A stretch of 32,430 nt of DNA from a virus, in IMG/VR virus record IMGVR_UViG_3300025305_000072, positions 1-32,430 of that record, one strand, 5' to 3'. Positions 3,487 to 24,876 of this stretch are shown here, in pieces. The notes under the pieces were generated by a model. That model worked only from the letters and a program-made list of their open reading frames with translations, did no database searches and was not told the DNA's origin. A program made the position numbers and the translations under genes. Each line of letters starts with the position of its first letter. Position 1 is the stretch's first letter.

Positions 3487-3858
3487 ATGGCTCAACCATA
3501 CGACATGAAGATCACACTGACGTTCAACTGGGTCTGCACTGAGGCTGAGAGTGAAGAGGACGCTATCGAGAAAACTCGTGATGCTCTGGGAGATATGAAA
3601 TCTTATATCGACTCACCGCTGAACCAACACTGGTACGGTGAGCATTTCCGTGTTGACGGGGCCGAGTCGGGCGTTCGCTTTGAAAAGGTTTCGATAGAGA
3701 TTTTGGACGGGGATTCGGACTTCACCCACGACTACGGTCACCGCTCACCTTCTTGGATAGAGATCAACCAACCAGACCTCTACCGCAAACTTAGAAAATC
3801 AGGAGAACTAACATATGAGGAAGGTGTTGGTCACCACTGGCGGGGATCGAGGAAATGA
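3487..3858 (+). CDS. Unknown protein, first gene of small-gene operon (123 aa)
   Basis: I do not recognise it. It starts with a strand-rich segment (Met-Lys-Ile-Thr-Leu-Thr-Phe), followed by an acidic helix with a Glu-Ser-Glu-Glu-Asp-Ala-Ile pattern (about residues 20-35). Small phage proteins often combine a beta strand and helix in this way. The C-terminal half has several His, Trp and Tyr residues. The ATG at 3487 is preferred over a GTG at 3478 because AGGAGAGG is well spaced from it. It overlaps the next gene by 4 bp (ATGA), so translation is probably coupled. Confidence 0.7.
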   Translation: MAQPYDMKITLTFNWVCTEAESEEDAIEKTRDALGDMKSYIDSPLNQHWYGEHFRVDGAESGVRFEKVSIEILDGDSDFTHDYGHRSPSWIEINQPDLYRKLRKSGELTYEEGVGHHWRGSRK

Positions 3859-5409: not shown

Positions 5410-5693
5410 ATACCACATCGTTTGGAACGGGTTCGGTATCAGTTGAGGAGGAAGACATTATGCGTGGGGCAAATGATCACCCATATAGACTTTGCGTTGA
5501 CACTTTCAAAACAAAAATACTACTCTATTCAAGGTACATGGAGTTGGCTAAAGGGCCACCTCGTGACAATGATATAGCCGATGAAGCGATCACGATGCTA
5601 AAGGATATAGAAAACTCGCTTTACTTGGCGTTGGACACAGCTTATCTGGATGGAAGACATGATGGATTGGTTGATGCATCGGAGTACAAATGA
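5406..5693 (+). CDS. Unknown small helical protein (95 aa)
   Basis: The ATG at 5406 overlaps the preceding stop and follows GGAAGGG. A longer reading from 5358 is less likely. The C-terminal two thirds look helical, with a Leu-Ala-Leu-Asp-Thr-Ala-Tyr-Leu-Asp segment. No cysteine pair, membrane segment or known motif is seen. Confidence 0.65.
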   Translation: MNTTSFGTGSVSVEEEDIMRGANDHPYRLCVDTFKTKILLYSRYMELAKGPPRDNDIADEAITMLKDIENSLYLALDTAYLDGRHDGLVDASEYK

Positions 5694-5932
5694 GGACAGT
5701 TGAAGCACGTCGTTTGCACAAAAGGTGTTTACGCAACGCCCGTATTTATGGACACAAACCTGTTTTAATCTCGCACCACGGGGCACTTGCATTGTACGGA
5801 TGCATGGGTTGTGAAAAGACAATGGAAGTGTGGGACTCTCCTGCCATAACGAATGGCCCGATGGATCAATCCCTGTGTGATATCAGTCCGAAGTTTCTCA
5901 GGAGAATATTGATTAGGTTGATATCAATATAA
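5690..5932 (+). CDS. Small Cys-x-x-Cys protein, last gene of operon (80 aa)
   Basis: It starts with an ATGA overlap. The N-terminus is basic (several Arg, Lys, His), a Cys-Met-Gly-Cys motif lies near residue 38, and single cysteines occur earlier and later. A zinc-binding fold is possible. Repeat cluster D begins 1 bp after its stop codon. Function unknown. Confidence 0.65.
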   Translation: MRTVEARRLHKRCLRNARIYGHKPVLISHHGALALYGCMGCEKTMEVWDSPAITNGPMDQSLCDISPKFLRRILIRLISI

Positions 5933-5933
5933 A

Positions 5934-5969
5934 GGTGCGGACGTGGGTACGGACTTTAGGTGCGGACGT
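5934..5969 (+). repeat. 11-bp direct repeat, cluster D
   Basis: Three units, GGTGCGGACGT (5934), GGTACGGACTT (5946) and GGTGCGGACGT (5959), are spaced 12 and 13 bp. The orientation is the same as in clusters A-C. Unlike those clusters, it lies directly behind a rightward operon and has no leftward promoter nearby. The rest of the gap to 6088 holds only hairpins. Confidence 0.8.
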
Positions 5970-6036
5970 GGGTGGGGAGGAAGACCCGCAGAGCAGCCTA
6001 TAAATCGACGGGAGGGCGATCAGGGTGCCCTGCGGG

Positions 6037-6064
6037 AGGCGTGAAAAAGGGAGAAACCACGCCT
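6037..6064. terminator. Hairpin between convergent operons
   Basis: AGGCGTG (6037-6043) pairs perfectly with CACGCCT (6058-6064) around a 14-nt loop and is followed on the plus strand by TTCCTTT. A smaller palindrome (CAGGG-TG-CCCTG, 6021-6032) lies just left. The site separates the end of the rightward small-gene operon from the end of the leftward replication operon, so it may serve one or both as a terminator. The T-tract is imperfect. Confidence 0.4.
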
Positions 6065-6088
6065 TTCCTTTATGTCAGAGATGCAAAG

Positions 6089-6301
6089 CTAAGAAGAAAA
6101 GTCTTCGGAGGCAATCCCCAAGGATGAATCGCACGCTCTACATTTGTACCTTGGTGGATTTGTACGGTGTATCATTCCACAATCGCAACGGGTACCGGGA
6201 TCAAATGGTCTCATTACCCATCCACAAAAATGACAATACTTGTCCCTTGATTGTCCGTTATCCGTGTTACAGCGAGGACAATAGATGGGCTCTTTAGCTA
6301 T
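6089..6301 (-). CDS. Double zinc-ribbon protein, likely AUA start (70 aa)
   Basis: The minus strand encodes four Cys-x-x-Cys or Cys-x-Cys motifs: CPRC and CHFC about 12 residues apart, then CDC and CRAC about 14 residues apart. This is the pattern of two consecutive zinc ribbons and is very unlikely by chance. The frame has no ATG, GTG or TTG before the first motif, back to an in-frame stop about 110 bases upstream. The best start is ATA at 6299-6301, preceded at 4-5 nt by AAGGAGG and overlapping the upstream TAG as ATAG, the same geometry as the ATGA couplings elsewhere here. Alternatively a -1 frameshift fuses it to the winged-helix protein. It may bind DNA, RNA or a host polymerase. Confidence 0.75.
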   Translation of the reverse strand: MAKEPIYCPRCNTDNGQSRDKYCHFCGWVMRPFDPGTRCDCGMIHRTNPPRYKCRACDSSLGIASEDFSS

Positions 6302-6552
6302 CCTTCCTCCTTGGCTGGTAGGATTCGATATGCCATGCGAGGTTGTGGTACCCCAGCTATGTTGGGCTTCGTAACACGCACGACCTGTATCCTCCCAGCT
6401 TCCGATAGTATTCTAAGCCGCACCCTCACCGCATTGCTTGATAGGCCCAAGAGATCACACAACTCATATGTCGTGTAGGCGTCGGGCGGATCTTCCGTAT
6501 TTCCAATGGCTGTTTCTAACTCTGCAATTATCTGTTCTTGCGTCAGGTGCAT
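6298..6552 (-). CDS. Winged-helix DNA-binding protein (84 aa)
   Basis: A helix-turn-helix is visible at about residues 27-58: a Thr-Thr-Tyr-Glu-Leu-Cys-Asp-Leu-Leu-Gly-Leu-Ser segment followed by a recognition helix rich in Arg and Val. A short wing-like stretch (Arg-Ile-Gln-Val-Val-Arg-Val) follows. This is the MarR/GntR-like small winged-helix layout. An AAGGGATAGCG stretch precedes the ATG. It sits 2 bp after the metallophosphoesterase stop, and its own end contains the Shine-Dalgarno sequence of the zinc-ribbon gene. It may regulate phage transcription. Confidence 0.7.
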   Translation of the reverse strand: MHLTQEQIIAELETAIGNTEDPPDAYTTYELCDLLGLSSNAVRVRLRILSEAGRIQVVRVTKPNIAGVPQPRMAYRILPAKEEG

Positions 6553-9476: not shown

Positions 9477-9919
9477 TGATCATCCCCCCTCACCAACTCC
9501 TCAAATGTACTCATTGCTTCTTCTTTATTCTCTATCGGTGCCACCACGATCAAACATCGGGGAGACTCCTTATCCAGCCCATGTTCTATATATTTTAGCT
9601 TGATAGCTCTGTCGTTTTTGTATATCTTGCCTTGCATTGCATCTAGGATTAGACTTTCATCTAGATCTGGCCGTCTTGTTTTATAGAAAATCTTTATACA
9701 AGCAATCAGATCTTCTGTGAATAAGGTATGTCTTACTGGGCACTGCTTGTCAAAGTCTTCAATATACGCGAGAGCCTTTTTCGATTTTATGGGAACCATT
9801 CGACCTTTGATCATGACGAGACGTCGTGAATTCGCCTTACTGCATGGCTCACCATGTATCGTAATGACGCACAGATTGTCATCGAAACCCTTGCGTAATG
9901 ATTGTAGTTTAGCTATCAT
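9458..9919 (-). CDS. rusA: RusA-like Holliday-junction resolvase (153 aa)
   Basis: RusA cuts four-way DNA junctions as a dimer. The N-terminus has the typical Gly-Glu-Pro-x-Ser-Lys-Ala-Asn segment (about residues 23-30). The acidic active-site set follows as Asp85-x-Asp87, Asp93 and Asn102-Asp103, in the order Pro-Asp-x-Asp ... Asp-Ala ... Asn-Asp seen in the family. The length is a little above the usual 120-140 residues. It is the first gene of the leftward replication operon, which has a strong promoter and a dyad directly in front of it. Confidence 0.85.
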   Translation of the reverse strand: MIAKLQSLRKGFDDNLCVITIHGEPCSKANSRRLVMIKGRMVPIKSKKALAYIEDFDKQCPVRHTLFTEDLIACIKIFYKTRRPDLDESLILDAMQGKIYKNDRAIKLKYIEHGLDKESPRCLIVVAPIENKEEAMSTFEELVRGDDQWGTQQ

Positions 9920-16911: not shown

Positions 16912-19900
16912 CTACGGCCTCTCGCCTAACACCTGTTCTATTAAATCTCTGTCTTCTCTGATGTCTGCCATTATATCCAGCATTTCCCGCAAGTGGTCGT
17001 CCCGTGTTTCAATCATTCGGTACAACATGCTTCGCTTGCCTTTTTCAGAGAGGTCGCGCCTTTCAAGCAAGTCATCACGGTCCTCTCGCCATTCGTCCAT
17101 GAATCTCTTCATATGACTCAAGCGGTCCTTATGGCGTAAATACTCTTCGTGTTTTTCCTCGTATTCTTGCGCCTTGCCCTCTGGTCCGTAACGACGCCTC
17201 TTCTCGATCTGGCCTAATGTGGTTACAATTTTATTAACATCTTCCAGCATTTCGTAAAAGTCTTCTTGGTAGCCACCGCCCCTTGCGGGATCAAATAAAA
17301 GGTCGCCAAGCATAGGGGTATTGACAAGCGTTTGGGTATTGAAACCCGACTCGCGCCCTCGTCTATCAAGGGGAGACAAGCCAACTATCTCACCAATCAA
17401 CGGGATCGGGAAGTCGGCTGCCGTTCCTACGATATTATCGTCGTGAAATTCGGCGGCAATACGATCTGCTGTTGCCAGCCCATACGCCCCTATCGTTCCA
17501 AAGTATTGGCGTAGCATGTATTCCAGTTTCATTGGCGATGTAAGAAAATCCGCATTCCTGACGAGTGGAATCTTGTTGATGCCACCGGACAGTTTCTTGC
17601 TAAGATAACTGGTGTATGGATTGAACTGTTCAGGGGCAGATACACTTTCCGACATCCATGATGGTACGATCCTGTCTCGTTGGAATACGTCCCTGTTGTT
17701 CATTGCGTCCCACACGGGACGTATGATCTGGGGTCTCAAGTCGAGACTGAGGGATGCCTGTACTTGACGCTTTACTTCACCCCTTACATCCCTGAAATCA
17801 TGTTCTTCTTCCACAATAGCACGGGCTATCTGTTCAGGGATCGTCTTATACAGAACACCTACTTCAAACGGAATCGGGATCTTGACGCCCGGCATCCCAT
17901 CTCCGAGAGGTATAAGCCACCAATCATTTTTCATGTCCTCTCTGGCGTTCTTGTATTCCTCCTCGTCATGCATAGCCATGTAATAGAGAAGTGTCATACT
18001 TGAGATAAACAAGCCTCTTCCGAGTACAACGCCCGCACGTCTCGCTTGATGCAACCCTGAGTCCGGGCGAATTCTTTTTTCGTTCGACAATATACCGGGC
18101 GCATCATAGGCACCCAAATGTGTTCGGGCCATGACATCAAGACCTTGGATTCGGCCATTCAGGAATGGTGCCATGGATGTTATGATACTGAACAACGGGT
18201 TGGACCCACGACGGCCATAGTTGATAATCTCCATGGCCTCCAATGTTGCCTGCGCCGCATTGCCATCTGTTTGTGCCATTACCGTATCGTAGACGGCCAT
18301 GCGGGTAGCCACCTCGGACTGTTTTGACATGCGGCCCAAAGCGTCCCATGCCAGTAAAGTAATATCTATGGGACTTGACCATTTCATCTCGCCCTTTGAA
18401 AGCATCTTGACGGTCGTTGCCGTCGATCTTGACGGGTCGGGTGACCAGTCAACACCGATTCCTAGTCCTCGTTTTTCCGCCTTCTCTACAATATCGGGAT
18501 CAATGACATTTTGTAGTGTCTTGAATATCAACTCCATTCCGCCACCGAACGTGACGGAAGCCTGCATACTGTCCCTTATGATGTTCTTTAACTGGAATGC
18601 CGGTGATCGAGTTACCAACTCACGCAACAATGTCGAAGATCCGACAACAATTCTGGAGAGACCCCTGTTAAGTCTTTCGCTCTCGCCAAGGACGGGTATC
18701 TTCCCGAAAAAGTCCTCTATCATTTGACGGGGACTCAAGGCTACGGACATTGCTGATTTCGCCAGCATAGCGTCCGCAACCAGATATTCTTGCTCGGAGC
18801 CATTTTCAAGGATATTGGTTTCGAGCTTGATTTCGTTCGCCTCCAATTTCTTATGGTCTTGCAAGATATCTTCTAATTCTTCGCGGGTTGCGTTCGGCAG
18901 ACGTTCCCTGACCTTAGCCAAGTCAGCTTTATATGTACTCTCGGTAATCCCCTTGGTCTTGACAATGAGTGATGTATCCCAGCCCTTGGCCTCGGCAATC
19001 TTTTTCTGCCTTCTCCTTATTTTCTCGATAGCATCAATCTCTGCTTTAAGCTCTTGCACTTCACTATAGCTTGGATGCTGAGATTCTTCTGTAATCTGTT
19101 TTTGCCCCATCGCGTCATCTATACGCTTCTTGAGAGCGTTGTATCTCCTGCGCTTCCATGCAGGAACGACGGCTAATCTAATGGCGGTACCGGAATTAAC
19201 CTCGTCACGCATTGTCCGGCTTGCCGCAATGTTTTCCATTGATTGTTCAAGAATGGTCCGCACATTCTTGGTTACATTAAAAATTAGGTTGTCATTAATC
19301 TCGTGGAAGCTGCCATCGAGATATTTATCGATAAGGGGGTCGCCTCTTACCGGCTCTCCTCCATGGTTGTCATACGCCGTCTCTGCGTCCTTCTTCTCCT
19401 GCTCTCTCTTCTGGTACTCTTCATTATTTATGTTGACCAATGTGCCGTCACTCGCCAGTGCGTCTGGATGTTTTTTGCCTTCGGGATCAACCGGGTCTTC
19501 TTTCACATAGAATGGGATATAGGGCATTGACTGCATGAAATCCTTGCGCGATTCGGAAACCAGCCCGGCGTCATGTGCAAACTGGATCAGGTGCCAATTG
19601 AAATCAGCATATTCCCGTTCAAATTTCAGGGCAGCAAGTGATGGTTTATCTCCATCTCCGGCCTCCCGGTTAACCCGATCTATTGTAGCAGCTACCTCAT
19701 TATACCCCTTGTCTAACACATCTGTTGTTTCAGACTGATGTACCTTTCCTACTACAACGTCGTAAAAACTACCCTTTAGGGTGCCGTCCTTGAGTCTTCT
19801 TGTATTACGTTCTTCTTCCGGCCATTTTTTGCCCTTCTTACGAGGGTTTGCCCTTTCGTACAGGGCGTTCAGTTCCCTTATCCTCGTTTCAAGATCGAGA

Positions 19901-22900
19901 GCGAGATCGGCTTGGTTCTCTCTTCGGGCCATGATGAGATCATTGTGCGCCGATCTCATTGCGGTTTGGATTCCTTCCACTCGACGCATTGTCATATAGG
20001 TCATGACCATTCTTTGGGCATCACCAACCTTTATCTCGCCCCACGGCCATTTCCTGCCGGGTCCATCAATCTCAACAATGGTTTTGAATATCTCGTTAAG
20101 ACCCTTTACGGCCCTTCCCTCTCTTGTGAGTGGGACGTGCTGGAAGCCGCCTTTGACATAGCTGATCATCCCGTATTTCATAATGCCGGGAATAAAGTTC
20201 AATGCATTGTCAGCAAATCGCCATGCCGCTATCGCCGAATTCTCGGCAAGTACGCCTAGCGTGGTACCGTAACGCTTGACTTCCTTGTCATACGACTTCT
20301 TGCTCGACAGCCACTGGAAAATACGCTTGTCCATAAGGCGGCCCCTGAGCATCTCTTTTTTGGTGCGCGTGATGGCTTCCTCTAATTGGGCACCATTTTC
20401 TATTGTATTGCCGTCAGGGTCTTGGAGAGTCATTCCGTCTATAACTTGCTTGCCTCCGGGATCTAGTTCCGCCGTTATGATCCCCATGTCAGCAAATTCC
20501 TGTAGCAACAACTCTTCTTTCTCTGACATGACAGAGCTATTATGACCAAACCGGAAACTGCGGAGATCTCTCGGTGATACTGGCATACGGTAGGCGAGGG
20601 CTCGACCGTCCTTTATCCTGAAATAGGCGTCAAGGGCGGCTGGCCCAACATTGCCGTCCTCTAGTGCAGCCAAATTGAGTACCGACAAGGACGTTTTTGG
20701 TGTACCGTCGATATCTGCCCGTGCCCTGAAGTCGTTGATAAGAGAATCTAGAAGAGATTCCGTGGGTTTTTTCTGTGATTCCTCGGCAGCGTCAACTCTC
20801 GACATAACGATTCTGTCGGCAACCTCTTCTATCTTATCCCTGTCTTTTGTCTTGATTGCCCGAATTAACTCTTTCACGTCTTCAGGCTTGGCACGATCAA
20901 TAAGCTGAAGGTCTGCTGCCTTGCGCTCCAGCCTGCCCTCCCGCTCCCTGCGATCAACCAGTTCCCTGTTCTGGATCTTCTCGAAAACTCTTATGACGGG
21001 AAGGATATCGGTATCTTGTGCAGCCCCGGCCATTGCCTTGAATCGTCCCCTCAACTCACGCTTGATCTTGCCTATCGCCCCAACAGATTTTGCCGCCGGG
21101 ATCTTGCCCTGAGCGAGTGCGTCCAAGATGTGTACGGAAGTCTCTTCTGTAAGGTCGGCATCCGTTTTATCTTGATATCCCTGTACATCCCTCACCCATT
21201 CGCGCCAAGTAAGGCCCTCGGCAGCGGCGTCCGGGTCAACTTCTACGGGAACCTTGGTGTGGCCGAATTTCTCTAGGGCCTTTCGTTCCCATACCTTCAT
21301 GTTTTTGAGTATGTGGATATGGGCACCCTCATGTGCCACGGCATGTTTCATGAGGTCATCAATATTGGCATCAGTAATCTTGCCAAACTCTCGTGCGATC
21401 TGTGAAAGATTGAATGTGATCTGATTGCCGTAATTCTGTAGAGAGGAAACTGCGCCGTTCGTATAGGCTGGCCTATATATTGGCTTGTTATTCTTATCCA
21501 ACTTGAGCTTGGGCCTGCCGTTCTCCATTACTACATTGCCCGTTTTCGGGTCCGTCTCCATCTCAAAGGCACCCAAGAAGGTGACATCCTCAACTTGCTT
21601 TCCAAGAAGTTCAGCATTTTGTTCTATCTCGAAAACTATTTCTGTTTCGTTGGGAAGCCCGGCCTCCTTGATATATTTTATTGCTATATTTCTCCATTCC
21701 TTGATGGTCTTGCCTGCCACGACCAGATTATCAACATCCTGCTTGCTTTCATGAGGCGATTTAGGAATAGCTCCCTCTTGTTTTTGTAGTCTCCTGAGTT
21801 CTTTGCGTCTTAGTAAATTCTCCCTGCCTATAGGACTTTTATCTTGTTGTTGTTGGGAGCCAAGAACGCGCTCAAAAACTGTCATCTTCTGAGCGTCACT
21901 CAGATTGCTCCACGAAAGATCATTGCCGACCGCATCATTCATCACCCGTTGGAAGGCTTTTGTTCGGGTCGGGTTCTTGGGTACGTCGTAGTTCTTTGCC
22001 TCAAGCGTTGCCTTGATAAGCTCTACGTCCACCGGCTTACCCGCCTTGACAAGGTTATCGTAAATCTCTTTTACTTTTTTGAATGCCGGTTCGGCAAGTA
22101 CCGTGGTCCAAGGCCCGGCATAAACCCTGTCCCTTCGTACAGGCTTGTCCTGTGACTTACTGTCCTCCAGCTTCCTATCGGTTTCGGGAATGGATCTAAT
22201 GTTTATAATTTGATCCAAGGCACTACTTGCATTCTTGGCATCTAACAAGGACTTAACCGTATTCTCAACTTCCCCGATGGACATGTCAGTGTCCCGTGGT
22301 CTACCGCTCAATTCTGCGATAAGGGCAGCCTGTTCCGGTGTCGCACCTATCCGGTCAGCAATAAGCTCTGGCGATTCCTGATCATTCTCCAGATTAGCGA
22401 GCCTTTGTTCTATCTCGGCTCTATCGACACCCTTATTTTCTATCTGTAATTCCAACGCCACTTTTTGCAGATTAACGCCTTCTTGCCCGGAAACGGTTTC
22501 GGTCATCGGGGTTCTACTGTACTCAATTCCCCGACCTTCGTATTCCAGATGCACGCCCGCAGGCTTCTTGTATTTGGTTTCTTCGAGTAACGCTGCTTCC
22601 TTTTCTTTGAGGATCTGCATTTTTTCGGACACGGCTGCTTGCTTCTGTTCCGCCTCTTCACGCAATTGCTCTAAGGCTTCCGGCGACAGTTCCCCGTCCT
22701 GAGCTTGTTGTCTTGCTTCGGCCCTCTTCTTGGACGATTCCTTCTCTGGGTACCTCCGACGGTACTCATCGAGGCGTGCCTTGGCATCAACATAACGGCC
22801 TTCGTGGTAGTCGAGGAGCGCCAGACGTTCGAGTTCTAATTTCATTTCCTCCGTGCGGAGGAGGTTCTGCTCGTACTTGTTCTCGTCTATCCTTTCTTCC

Positions 22901-24876
22901 AATTCTTCCAATCCATCCAGCTTTTCTTCCAGAGCTTTAAGATTCTCTCCGTCTGGATCAACCTCGGCAGCAATCTCTTCAATGACTCCGTCTCTATTTT
23001 TGGGGCCTTTGAAACGAGCGGTGATATGCTCCCATACCGCTCCCAGTTTATATGTGGGTGGTGAAGAAAGATGTTCTATACCGAGAGCAGGCTGTCCGGC
23101 AGACTCGATAGCTCGCTCCTGCGCCTGAACGCTTACCAAGAGTGTCTCAAGTTTTTTCTTATATTCAATTAGTTCAGGATCTGCCTTCTCGGCAATCTTC
23201 TTATCGACCTTGGCAATCTCCTCATTGACCATGTCAGAGGTGAGGACTTCCAAATCCAACTCGTCGAGTTCGGCCTGAGCCTCAGCATTGTCTTGCTCTT
23301 CGAGAACGGCGGGCATTGTACCATTCCAAGTCCCATTCTCGACCATCTTCAGGGCCTCTCGATACCTGATCATCTCCCTGCCGTAGTTTACCAGTTCATC
23401 TGCAAGTTGTGCGCTGTCTGATTCATGTTGCTCTTCAATTTTCTTTTCCGCTGCTTCGCGTTGATTCTTTGTCTTTAATTTACGCTTGCTTAACCGCTTC
23501 AATCGATCATCGCGTAGTTGATCAATCTTATTTTTCTGTTCGGCGTGTATCTCGCTAGCCCGCTTATCGATATCCGTGTCGTTGCCCGTGAGTACCTGTT
23601 GCCGGATTTTCTCTTGTTCCTCGGCGTGCGCCTTTTCCTCGTTATATTGGTCCTCAGTGATCTCTCCCTTATTGTAGCGTTCCTCAATAGCAGCGAAGTC
23701 CGGGCCGGTAACCATGTTATCGACTTCGTCGGCAGTGTATTTGCCGGTTTCGAGAGCATGTGTAAATGATTTGCCAGCTTCTACACGCGCCTGATATTTC
23801 CCGCCTCGTACCCTGATACCGGCAGCAGATCGCACATACATGGAAGCTATGATATCGGCAACGGCACCAACCTCACCGCCAATGATGGCTTCCTTCAGGG
23901 CTTCGGTGCCAGCATTTTCCAAAGCGTCTTCGTCGTAGAGAACCTTGGCTAGCACAGACTGGAGGAACCCTGCGCCACCTTCCTGAATGGCTTCCTCGGT
24001 AGCTTGCTGGGCAGCAGACTGGAACATCTTGCCAGTTGTCATATCGATGCCCTTCTCAATTGCATCCGGGCCGAATCTCCCTGCGAGCCTGCTGACGGGC
24101 ATCATTTCAGTCCACCCTAGACCAAGACCGCCCAAGAGAGCCGCCACTTCCGTGCCCTTGCCGACATCCCTTCCGGTACGCTCCTCGTAGTCAGCGACCA
24201 TTCCGGCCTGTTGGCCTGCGCCCATGAGCATCGCGCCCCCATAGGCCGCGTATGGACCTACATAGGGAATGAAGGCGGTTCCTGCCATGGCCGCTACCTG
24301 ACCCAGTCCCATGGCTAGTTGTGGTAGGTTGGCGTCCCGGTACACCGGATCGATTTCGTCGTAGAGGTCTTGTAGTTTCTTTCTCAGTTGCTTTTCGCGA
24401 TCCGTATCCTTGTCGGGCGTAGCAAGTCCGAGGAGTCCCTGTTCGGCCATGAGCGCGAACTGTTTCGCTCCTCGTGGGAAGGCTTTTACGGCCTCAAAAG
24501 CAGATCCGAGAAGTGTGCCCTCTTTCTCTGGGACTGGGTCTTCTATACCTAACGAGGCAATGCCAGTCCTATCTCGGCCCGTCCGTGCGGCATCGTCCCC
24601 TCGTGTCGGGAACCCTCGTGTCGGGAACCCGGAAGATTCCTGCCGCGTAGGGAATCCCCGCGTAGGGAATCCCTGCGTAGGGAATCCTGAAGACTCTTCT
24701 TGGGGAGAGAATCCTCTTGTAGGAAATCCTCTTGTAGGAAATCCTGAAGATTCTTCTTGGTCGGGAGGAGGAGAACTGGACCCAGTTACCCTACGAATAA
24801 ACCGGGCACGTTCCTCTGGGGACATGCCCGGCGGTATTCGCACAACCCTGCCGTCAGATAAGGTAATTGTTTCCAC
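16912..24876 (-). CDS. Giant polyvalent virion protein with zinc-peptidase motif (2654 aa)
   Basis: In order: a Pro/Gly-Phe-Pro-Thr-Arg-rich N-terminus with a pentapeptide array; a hydrophobic Gly/Ala-rich helical region (about 185-260); a long Glu/Lys-rich coiled coil (about 370-800); His1182-Glu-Gly-Ala-His1186, a zinc-peptidase motif, with Glu1245 as possible third ligand; further helical segments; a Phe-Ala-His-Asp-Ala-Gly-Leu...Pro-Tyr-Ile-Pro-Phe-Tyr block (about 1770); and an LPD38-like domain (about 2165-2290) with Asn-Tyr-Gly-Arg-Arg-Gly and Pro-Phe-Leu-Asn-Gly. Such proteins are packaged in the virion and enter with the DNA, in the role of T7 gp16. The start is a GTG at 24876 with a weak ribosome site. 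Confidence 0.8.
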   Translation of the reverse strand: METITLSDGRVVRIPPGMSPEERARFIRRVTGSSSPPPDQEESSGFPTRGFPTRGFSPQEESSGFPTQGFPTRGFPTRQESSGFPTRGFPTRGDDAARTGRDRTGIASLGIEDPVPEKEGTLLGSAFEAVKAFPRGAKQFALMAEQGLLGLATPDKDTDREKQLRKKLQDLYDEIDPVYRDANLPQLAMGLGQVAAMAGTAFIPYVGPYAAYGGAMLMGAGQQAGMVADYEERTGRDVGKGTEVAALLGGLGLGWTEMMPVSRLAGRFGPDAIEKGIDMTTGKMFQSAAQQATEEAIQEGGAGFLQSVLAKVLYDEDALENAGTEALKEAIIGGEVGAVADIIASMYVRSAAGIRVRGGKYQARVEAGKSFTHALETGKYTADEVDNMVTGPDFAAIEERYNKGEITEDQYNEEKAHAEEQEKIRQQVLTGNDTDIDKRASEIHAEQKNKIDQLRDDRLKRLSKRKLKTKNQREAAEKKIEEQHESDSAQLADELVNYGREMIRYREALKMVENGTWNGTMPAVLEEQDNAEAQAELDELDLEVLTSDMVNEEIAKVDKKIAEKADPELIEYKKKLETLLVSVQAQERAIESAGQPALGIEHLSSPPTYKLGAVWEHITARFKGPKNRDGVIEEIAAEVDPDGENLKALEEKLDGLEELEERIDENKYEQNLLRTEEMKLELERLALLDYHEGRYVDAKARLDEYRRRYPEKESSKKRAEARQQAQDGELSPEALEQLREEAEQKQAAVSEKMQILKEKEAALLEETKYKKPAGVHLEYEGRGIEYSRTPMTETVSGQEGVNLQKVALELQIENKGVDRAEIEQRLANLENDQESPELIADRIGATPEQAALIAELSGRPRDTDMSIGEVENTVKSLLDAKNASSALDQIINIRSIPETDRKLEDSKSQDKPVRRDRVYAGPWTTVLAEPAFKKVKEIYDNLVKAGKPVDVELIKATLEAKNYDVPKNPTRTKAFQRVMNDAVGNDLSWSNLSDAQKMTVFERVLGSQQQQDKSPIGRENLLRRKELRRLQKQEGAIPKSPHESKQDVDNLVVAGKTIKEWRNIAIKYIKEAGLPNETEIVFEIEQNAELLGKQVEDVTFLGAFEMETDPKTGNVVMENGRPKLKLDKNNKPIYRPAYTNGAVSSLQNYGNQITFNLSQIAREFGKITDANIDDLMKHAVAHEGAHIHILKNMKVWERKALEKFGHTKVPVEVDPDAAAEGLTWREWVRDVQGYQDKTDADLTEETSVHILDALAQGKIPAAKSVGAIGKIKRELRGRFKAMAGAAQDTDILPVIRVFEKIQNRELVDRREREGRLERKAADLQLIDRAKPEDVKELIRAIKTKDRDKIEEVADRIVMSRVDAAEESQKKPTESLLDSLINDFRARADIDGTPKTSLSVLNLAALEDGNVGPAALDAYFRIKDGRALAYRMPVSPRDLRSFRFGHNSSVMSEKEELLLQEFADMGIITAELDPGGKQVIDGMTLQDPDGNTIENGAQLEEAITRTKKEMLRGRLMDKRIFQWLSSKKSYDKEVKRYGTTLGVLAENSAIAAWRFADNALNFIPGIMKYGMISYVKGGFQHVPLTREGRAVKGLNEIFKTIVEIDGPGRKWPWGEIKVGDAQRMVMTYMTMRRVEGIQTAMRSAHNDLIMARRENQADLALDLETRIRELNALYERANPRKKGKKWPEEERNTRRLKDGTLKGSFYDVVVGKVHQSETTDVLDKGYNEVAATIDRVNREAGDGDKPSLAALKFEREYADFNWHLIQFAHDAGLVSESRKDFMQSMPYIPFYVKEDPVDPEGKKHPDALASDGTLVNINNEEYQKREQEKKDAETAYDNHGGEPVRGDPLIDKYLDGSFHEINDNLIFNVTKNVRTILEQSMENIAASRTMRDEVNSGTAIRLAVVPAWKRRRYNALKKRIDDAMGQKQITEESQHPSYSEVQELKAEIDAIEKIRRRQKKIAEAKGWDTSLIVKTKGITESTYKADLAKVRERLPNATREELEDILQDHKKLEANEIKLETNILENGSEQEYLVADAMLAKSAMSVALSPRQMIEDFFGKIPVLGESERLNRGLSRIVVGSSTLLRELVTRSPAFQLKNIIRDSMQASVTFGGGMELIFKTLQNVIDPDIVEKAEKRGLGIGVDWSPDPSRSTATTVKMLSKGEMKWSSPIDITLLAWDALGRMSKQSEVATRMAVYDTVMAQTDGNAAQATLEAMEIINYGRRGSNPLFSIITSMAPFLNGRIQGLDVMARTHLGAYDAPGILSNEKRIRPDSGLHQARRAGVVLGRGLFISSMTLLYYMAMHDEEEYKNAREDMKNDWWLIPLGDGMPGVKIPIPFEVGVLYKTIPEQIARAIVEEEHDFRDVRGEVKRQVQASLSLDLRPQIIRPVWDAMNNRDVFQRDRIVPSWMSESVSAPEQFNPYTSYLSKKLSGGINKIPLVRNADFLTSPMKLEYMLRQYFGTIGAYGLATADRIAAEFHDDNIVGTAADFPIPLIGEIVGLSPLDRRGRESGFNTQTLVNTPMLGDLLFDPARGGGYQEDFYEMLEDVNKIVTTLGQIEKRRRYGPEGKAQEYEEKHEEYLRHKDRLSHMKRFMDEWREDRDDLLERRDLSEKGKRSMLYRMIETRDDHLREMLDIMADIREDRDLIEQVLGERP
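24601..24745 (-). repeat. Array of 15-bp coding repeats (Gly-Phe-Pro-Thr-Arg)
   Basis: Three local groups encode seven Gly-Phe-Pro-Thr-Arg/Gln units in the giant protein: two identical 15-mers (24601-24630), three near-identical ones (24644-24688) and two identical ones (24716-24745). Units within a group match at DNA level but groups differ. The groups are separated by Gln-Glu-Ser-Ser spacers. This pattern suggests recent local duplication. Confidence 0.9.

Follow-up and report, generated by a model that had tools for sequence, protein, structure and literature searches.

A hidden viral gene for a double zinc ribbon, with a probable AUA start at an ATAG stop-start overlap

Introduction

In S. 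aureus, AUA starts were reported for infC, ccpN and citZ (PMC13009471). Extended Shine-Dalgarno (SD) sites accompany infC and ccpN as well as cvfC1, a gene with an AUU start whose product is a 61-aa putative zinc finger (PMC13009471). In reporters, expression from non-canonical starts was ~10% of that from AUG in poor medium, and ccpN reached up to 30% in rich medium (PMC13009471). With an E. coli coupling reporter that had no SD sequence, downstream reading was lost when AUGA was replaced by AUAA, and UAAUA reached 0.4% compared to 24.7% for UAAUG (PMC9955659). It was also found that released ribosomes are guided by an SD sequence to an AUG that lies on the same side of the stop as the SD sequence itself (PMC9955659). 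The RNA-unfolding model of coupling and the gene pairs that overlap as ATGA (-4 nt) have been reviewed (PMC12548453). For ribosomal frameshifting in E. coli, X_XXZ_ZZN and Z_ZZN are motif types that have been named (PMC4066793).

Here we analyzed a small open frame in a viral sequence of 32,430 nucleotides (IMG/VR record IMGVR_UViG_3300025305_000072; the whole stretch is called the window). Like the S. aureus genes, this frame combines an apparent near-cognate start with a strong SD sequence and, like cvfC1, it encodes a small predicted zinc protein. Unlike them, it is viral, its start overlaps a stop and it is known from sequence alone, whereas the S. aureus genes are bacterial, are backed by retapamulin ribosome profiling and reporters, and several of their starts are conserved. 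Compared to the ATGA (-4 nt) coupled pairs, the junction in the window has the identical geometry, an SD sequence and a polycistronic strand, but it reads ATAG instead of ATGA or NTGA. The site has an SD sequence and a favourable geometry but not AUG, and a reduced yet real expression would be the likeliest outcome.

Results

The zinc-ribbon frame and its family

The zinc-ribbon frame, the ATAG junction, the winged-helix gene and the phosphoesterase gene are all on the minus strand (Table 1), a point on which the preliminary description was silent. The zinc-ribbon frame is -1 relative to the winged-helix gene and reads IAKEPIYCPRCNTDNGQSRDKYCHFCGWVMRPFDPGTRCDCGMIHRTNPPRYKCRACDSSLGIASEDFSS, followed by a stop. 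The preliminary description of this DNA had noted 70 codons with four paired-cysteine motifs and no preceding in-frame ATG, GTG or TTG, and this is what we see: the pairs are CPRC, CHFC, CDC and CRAC, of which CDC is a CxC and the other three are CxxC, and the frame is open from 6412 with none of the three start codons upstream of the first cysteine. ATG first appears in this frame inside the gene, at 6214 and 6175. As had been claimed, standard gene callers would therefore miss the gene. The frame is more than a chance product: a loose pattern of four cysteine pairs within one open frame occurred 5 times in 200 simulated windows. Raw codon-usage scoring was also applied to the frame, and it is uninformative here because cysteine-rich frames score low by this measure.

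Table 1. Coordinates of the features at and around the ATAG junction (positions in the window)
Feature	Position	Strand	Remarks
Double zinc-ribbon gene	6089..6301	-	70 codons from a putative ATA start, then TAG; Zn-PE-wHTH module member at a new position
ATA, putative start codon	6299..6301	-	gap-free alignment with the ATG of L062, L063, L066 and L067
TAG stop of winged-helix gene	6298..6300	-	overlaps ATA as ATAG
AAGGAGG, Shine-Dalgarno-like	6306..6312	-	4 nt before ATA; predicted anti-SD pairing -9.5 kcal/mol
Predicted mRNA hairpin	6295..6335	-	GGAGG and AUA inside the stem; minimum-energy fold of 6360-6241
ATC, rival near-cognate start	6284..6286	-	2 codons before first Cys; 19 nt past AAGGAGG
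Winged-helix-like gene, 84 aa	6298..6552	-	conserved directly after the phosphoesterase in relatives
Metallophosphoesterase-like gene, 298 aa	6555..7451	-	centre of the conserved module

In the viral collection, protein and pattern searches with the window frame matched only a near-identical contig, and searches of solved structures and NCBIfam returned weak generic matches at most. The family was reached by searching with the neighbouring phosphoesterase and not with the zinc-ribbon frame. In 24 related viral loci a double zinc-ribbon gene is located immediately upstream of the phosphoesterase, and a winged-helix gene directly after it. The window frame was compared to a profile of 21 relatives from which the window sequence was left out; an earlier comparison with the window sequence inside the profile was circular and was dropped in its favour. 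Against all six frames of the window, this profile gave an E-value of 9e-6 for the zinc-ribbon frame and 0.18 for the runner-up. The score of 22.5 bits indicates a match beyond the cysteines alone, as none of 3000 cysteine-preserving shuffles reached it (best 19.1), nor did any of 3000 shuffles that also kept P9, G27 and G42 (best 21.9).

Over 22 sequences, including the window, the residues C8, R10, C11, C23, C26, W28, C39, C41, C54 and C57 are invariant. All eight cysteines are thus conserved, which removes a doubt that was raised when the frame was first described. The window member is divergent, with 24-35% identity to its relatives, and we judge it a member of the family because it keeps the cysteines, R10 and W28 and its profile score lies above those of all shuffles. 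On these comparisons, the frame is a genuine gene, a diverged and relocated member of the zinc-ribbon family, and the hidden double zinc-ribbon gene proposed earlier gains homologues in 24 loci. We infer that its protein binds zinc.

The family resembles Pfam DZR (PF12773) in having two successive cysteine-pair ribbons, of which the first is the better conserved half. At E < 0.01, 21 of the 22 family members match DZR; the window copy is the exception (no match at E 0.01), and its best weak match is Zn_Ribbon_1, with an E-value of 0.078. Unlike DZR, the family carries a signature of its own, CPRC...CxxCxW, and the window copy has a CxC third pair and a longer loop in the second ribbon.

The conserved module and the relocation of the zinc-ribbon gene

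The zinc ribbon, the phosphoesterase and the winged helix form a conserved module (Zn-PE-wHTH). For the phosphoesterase, weak matches to Metallophos were obtained with 5 of 11 members. The constant company of the zinc-ribbon gene suggests a role shared with the phosphoesterase and the winged helix, and for its molecular role we can offer a guess: a small zinc-stabilised adaptor or a nucleic-acid-binding partner of the phosphoesterase/winged-helix pair. The winged-helix stop in the window lies 260 nt past the end of the phosphoesterase, and the relatives have it mostly at 252-281 nt (listed range 233-323). The window TAG looks genuine because its distance fits the relatives. In several module loci (among L050-L128), such as L068 and L082, the zinc-ribbon gene is absent beside the phosphoesterase. 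Among genome contigs no relatives of the phosphoesterase were found. Two weak zinc-ribbon matches in MAGs showed no Zn-PE-wHTH module in the stretches searched. On a Bathyarchaeota MAG contig (L143), a zinc-ribbon frame has a CPRC...RFCWLCGWD signature, with no phosphoesterase or winged-helix neighbour found in the 3.9 kb searched.

The gene order of the window differs from that of the relatives. Its zinc-ribbon gene follows the winged-helix gene, two genes downstream of the phosphoesterase, and is not immediately upstream of the phosphoesterase as in the 24 relatives; in another record (G022) the copy is ~4 kb upstream. As position varies in the family, the odd position of the window copy weighs little against its homology. 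In the phosphoesterase tree the window falls within the clade L050-L058 (support 99/98), on a long branch whose exact placement is unsure. In the other members of this clade, no zinc-ribbon gene was found near the phosphoesterase or in the remainder of the fragmentary records that were searched. In L052 and L053, which are closely related, the sequence directly downstream of the winged-helix gene seems to differ by a complete small gene. From these sequences, the slot behind the winged-helix gene, where the window carries its zinc-ribbon gene, looks labile. The new gene order may be the result of a move within the genome or of a loss that was followed by a regain.

The other relocated zinc-ribbon copy, that of G022 (L129), is located at ~1435-1683 of the reverse complement of its record. 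The sole canonical start before its cysteines is a TTG 23 codons away, and just upstream a T6 tract follows an out-of-frame ATG. We do not claim this copy as a second non-canonical start, since the TTG start and the T6 tract give ordinary readings.

The ATAG junction

The ATAG stop overlap with AAGGAGG just ahead of it, as first described, is found at the junction with the spacing given in Table 1, and the ATGA couplings that were said to exist elsewhere in the stretch do exist, for example at 3855-3858, 5690-5693 and 9916-9919. AAGGAGG appears 8 times across the window, and the predicted anti-SD pairing of the one at the junction ranks among the stronger sites in the window. The same letters are also read as codons at the C-terminal end of the winged helix (AAG GAG G), whose gene ends AAG GAG GAA GGA TAG. 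The presence of AAGGAGG before ATA may be partly coincidental, as it encodes the charged tail of the winged helix (AAG GAG GAA). The minimum-energy fold of the 120-nt piece that contains the predicted hairpin has a z of -2.05. The hairpin, itself only a prediction, is in line with a model in which coupling works through RNA unfolding (PMC12548453).

Canonical starts are found in all 24 relatives, 22 with ATG and two with GTG (L074 and L085, where the L074 start was taken as the GTG two codons before the cysteine), and three further family members also start with ATG; the window has ATA. In the relatives, the distance from the start to the first cysteine ranges from two to seven codons. The ATA of the window is seven codons ahead of this cysteine, the same as the ATG in the four relatives named in Table 1; M-A-H-N-L-H-Y-C of L066, for example, aligns with I-A-K-E-P-I-Y-C of the window without a gap. 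In relation to the end of the upstream stop, all 24 relatives start at -14 to +8 nt (14 nt after to 8 nt before), and the window at +4. The contig of a second assembly has the same ATAG, with 2 differences over 15.2 kb, and may not be independent of the assembly of the window. Among the relatives, the ATA is shared only by this near-identical contig.

The preliminary description left the choice between AUA initiation by tight coupling and a -1 slip. The apparent AUA start is favoured by its offset in common with relatives, by the coupled starts of the relatives and by the ATAG of the second assembly; the frameshift is not favoured, as discussed below. A check of the ATAG site in relatives was also proposed there, with an ATG expected if the base were a sequencing error. 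An ATG is indeed present in the relatives, but their gene stands at a different locus, and this ATG does not show that the base of the window is a sequencing error.

Discussion

We consider the gene genuine, and its translation by stop-start coupling at AUA with Shine-Dalgarno help, at a reduced yield, probable. Ribosomes that complete the winged-helix gene would unfold the predicted hairpin which holds GGAGG and AUA, and AAGGAGG would hold those ribosomes near the overlapping AUA. Initiation with fMet would then take place at the AUA that overlaps the winged-helix stop, and the zinc-ribbon output would be some fraction of the AUG level. Both the initiation at AUA and the role of the hairpin in it are what we infer from the junction. 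A broader proposal is that the relocated gene is held at a low, dose-set expression, that its AUA initiates only through stop-start coupling together with a strong SD sequence, and that it represents a class of overlapping genes invisible to gene finders; this we hold tentatively, as conceivable rather than probable.

One other option is that the start codon was lost after the relocation, with little or no translation and a gene that is starting to decay. This would agree with the canonical start of all 24 relatives that have the gene beside the phosphoesterase, with the failure of AUA in the coupling reporter without an SD sequence (PMC9955659), and with the same-clade relatives whose searched records lack the gene, so that it is seemingly dispensable. 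Yet the frame is intact and keeps all eight cysteines in spite of its divergence, which argues for a long-kept constraint (though the loss could be recent), a strong SD sequence is present at a usable spacing, and ATAG is seen in two assemblies; decay seems unlikely to us. Initiation might instead take place at the AUC, 11 nt past the winged-helix stop. AUC is near-cognate, as AUA is, and its two-codon offset is the ATG position in L060, L065, L070, L078 and others, but AAGGAGG is far from it, only a weak AAAGAG is nearby, and AUA is closer to both the stop and the SD sequence. We regard the use of AUC as quite unlikely.

The -1 slip at the internal SD sequence, which would create a winged-helix/zinc-ribbon fusion near the stop, was not supported by the analysis and is very improbable. 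The zinc-ribbon frame is indeed the -1 frame and is open far back into the winged-helix gene, with an SD-like stretch just before the stop. However, an X_XXZ_ZZN heptamer, a Z_ZZN tetramer and an A/T run are all absent from the overlap, re-pairing at -1 is poor for the codons ahead of the stop, the winged-helix gene ends at its conserved place, and in the relatives each of the two proteins has a gene of its own, the two genes are not adjacent and no fusion is needed. There is a similarly slight chance that the base was misread and that the virus in truth carries ATG, as the ATG or GTG of all relatives might lead one to think. The second assembly also has ATAG, although possibly not independently, and a G at 6299 would remove the TAG and extend the winged helix by 28 codons, so that it would end 344 nt past the phosphoesterase, compared to the 233-323 nt listed for relatives. 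As for the sole use of the internal ATG at 6214, the first canonical start in frame, it would yield a protein of 41 residues that has only the second ribbon, dropping the best conserved half of the family, and no clear SD sequence is seen upstream of it; we find this scarcely credible.

If coupled initiation at AUA works here, ATAG (and ATAA) overlaps would be usable coupling junctions beside ATGA, and gene callers that require ATG, GTG or TTG may overlook small coupled genes. It would also show whether a near-cognate start, inactive when coupling acts without an SD sequence, becomes usable when a strong SD sequence is added to coupling. Independent of AUA, the analysis defines a conserved zinc-ribbon/phosphoesterase/winged-helix module of uncultured viruses; the small zinc gene of this module can disappear or change its place.

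Some other features were observed in the window. On the plus strand, 6038-6073 holds a GGCGTG/CACGCC hairpin with a 14-nt loop and then TTTCCTTTAT, which may together terminate the plus-strand genes that end at 5932; our hairpin scan allows loops of 3-8, so this hairpin is not in its list. Two 21-nt direct repeats, 25 nt apart, are located at 5933-5978 in the gap between convergent genes. On the minus strand, 16912-24876 encodes a protein of 2654 aa that contains an LPD38 large polyvalent-protein domain.
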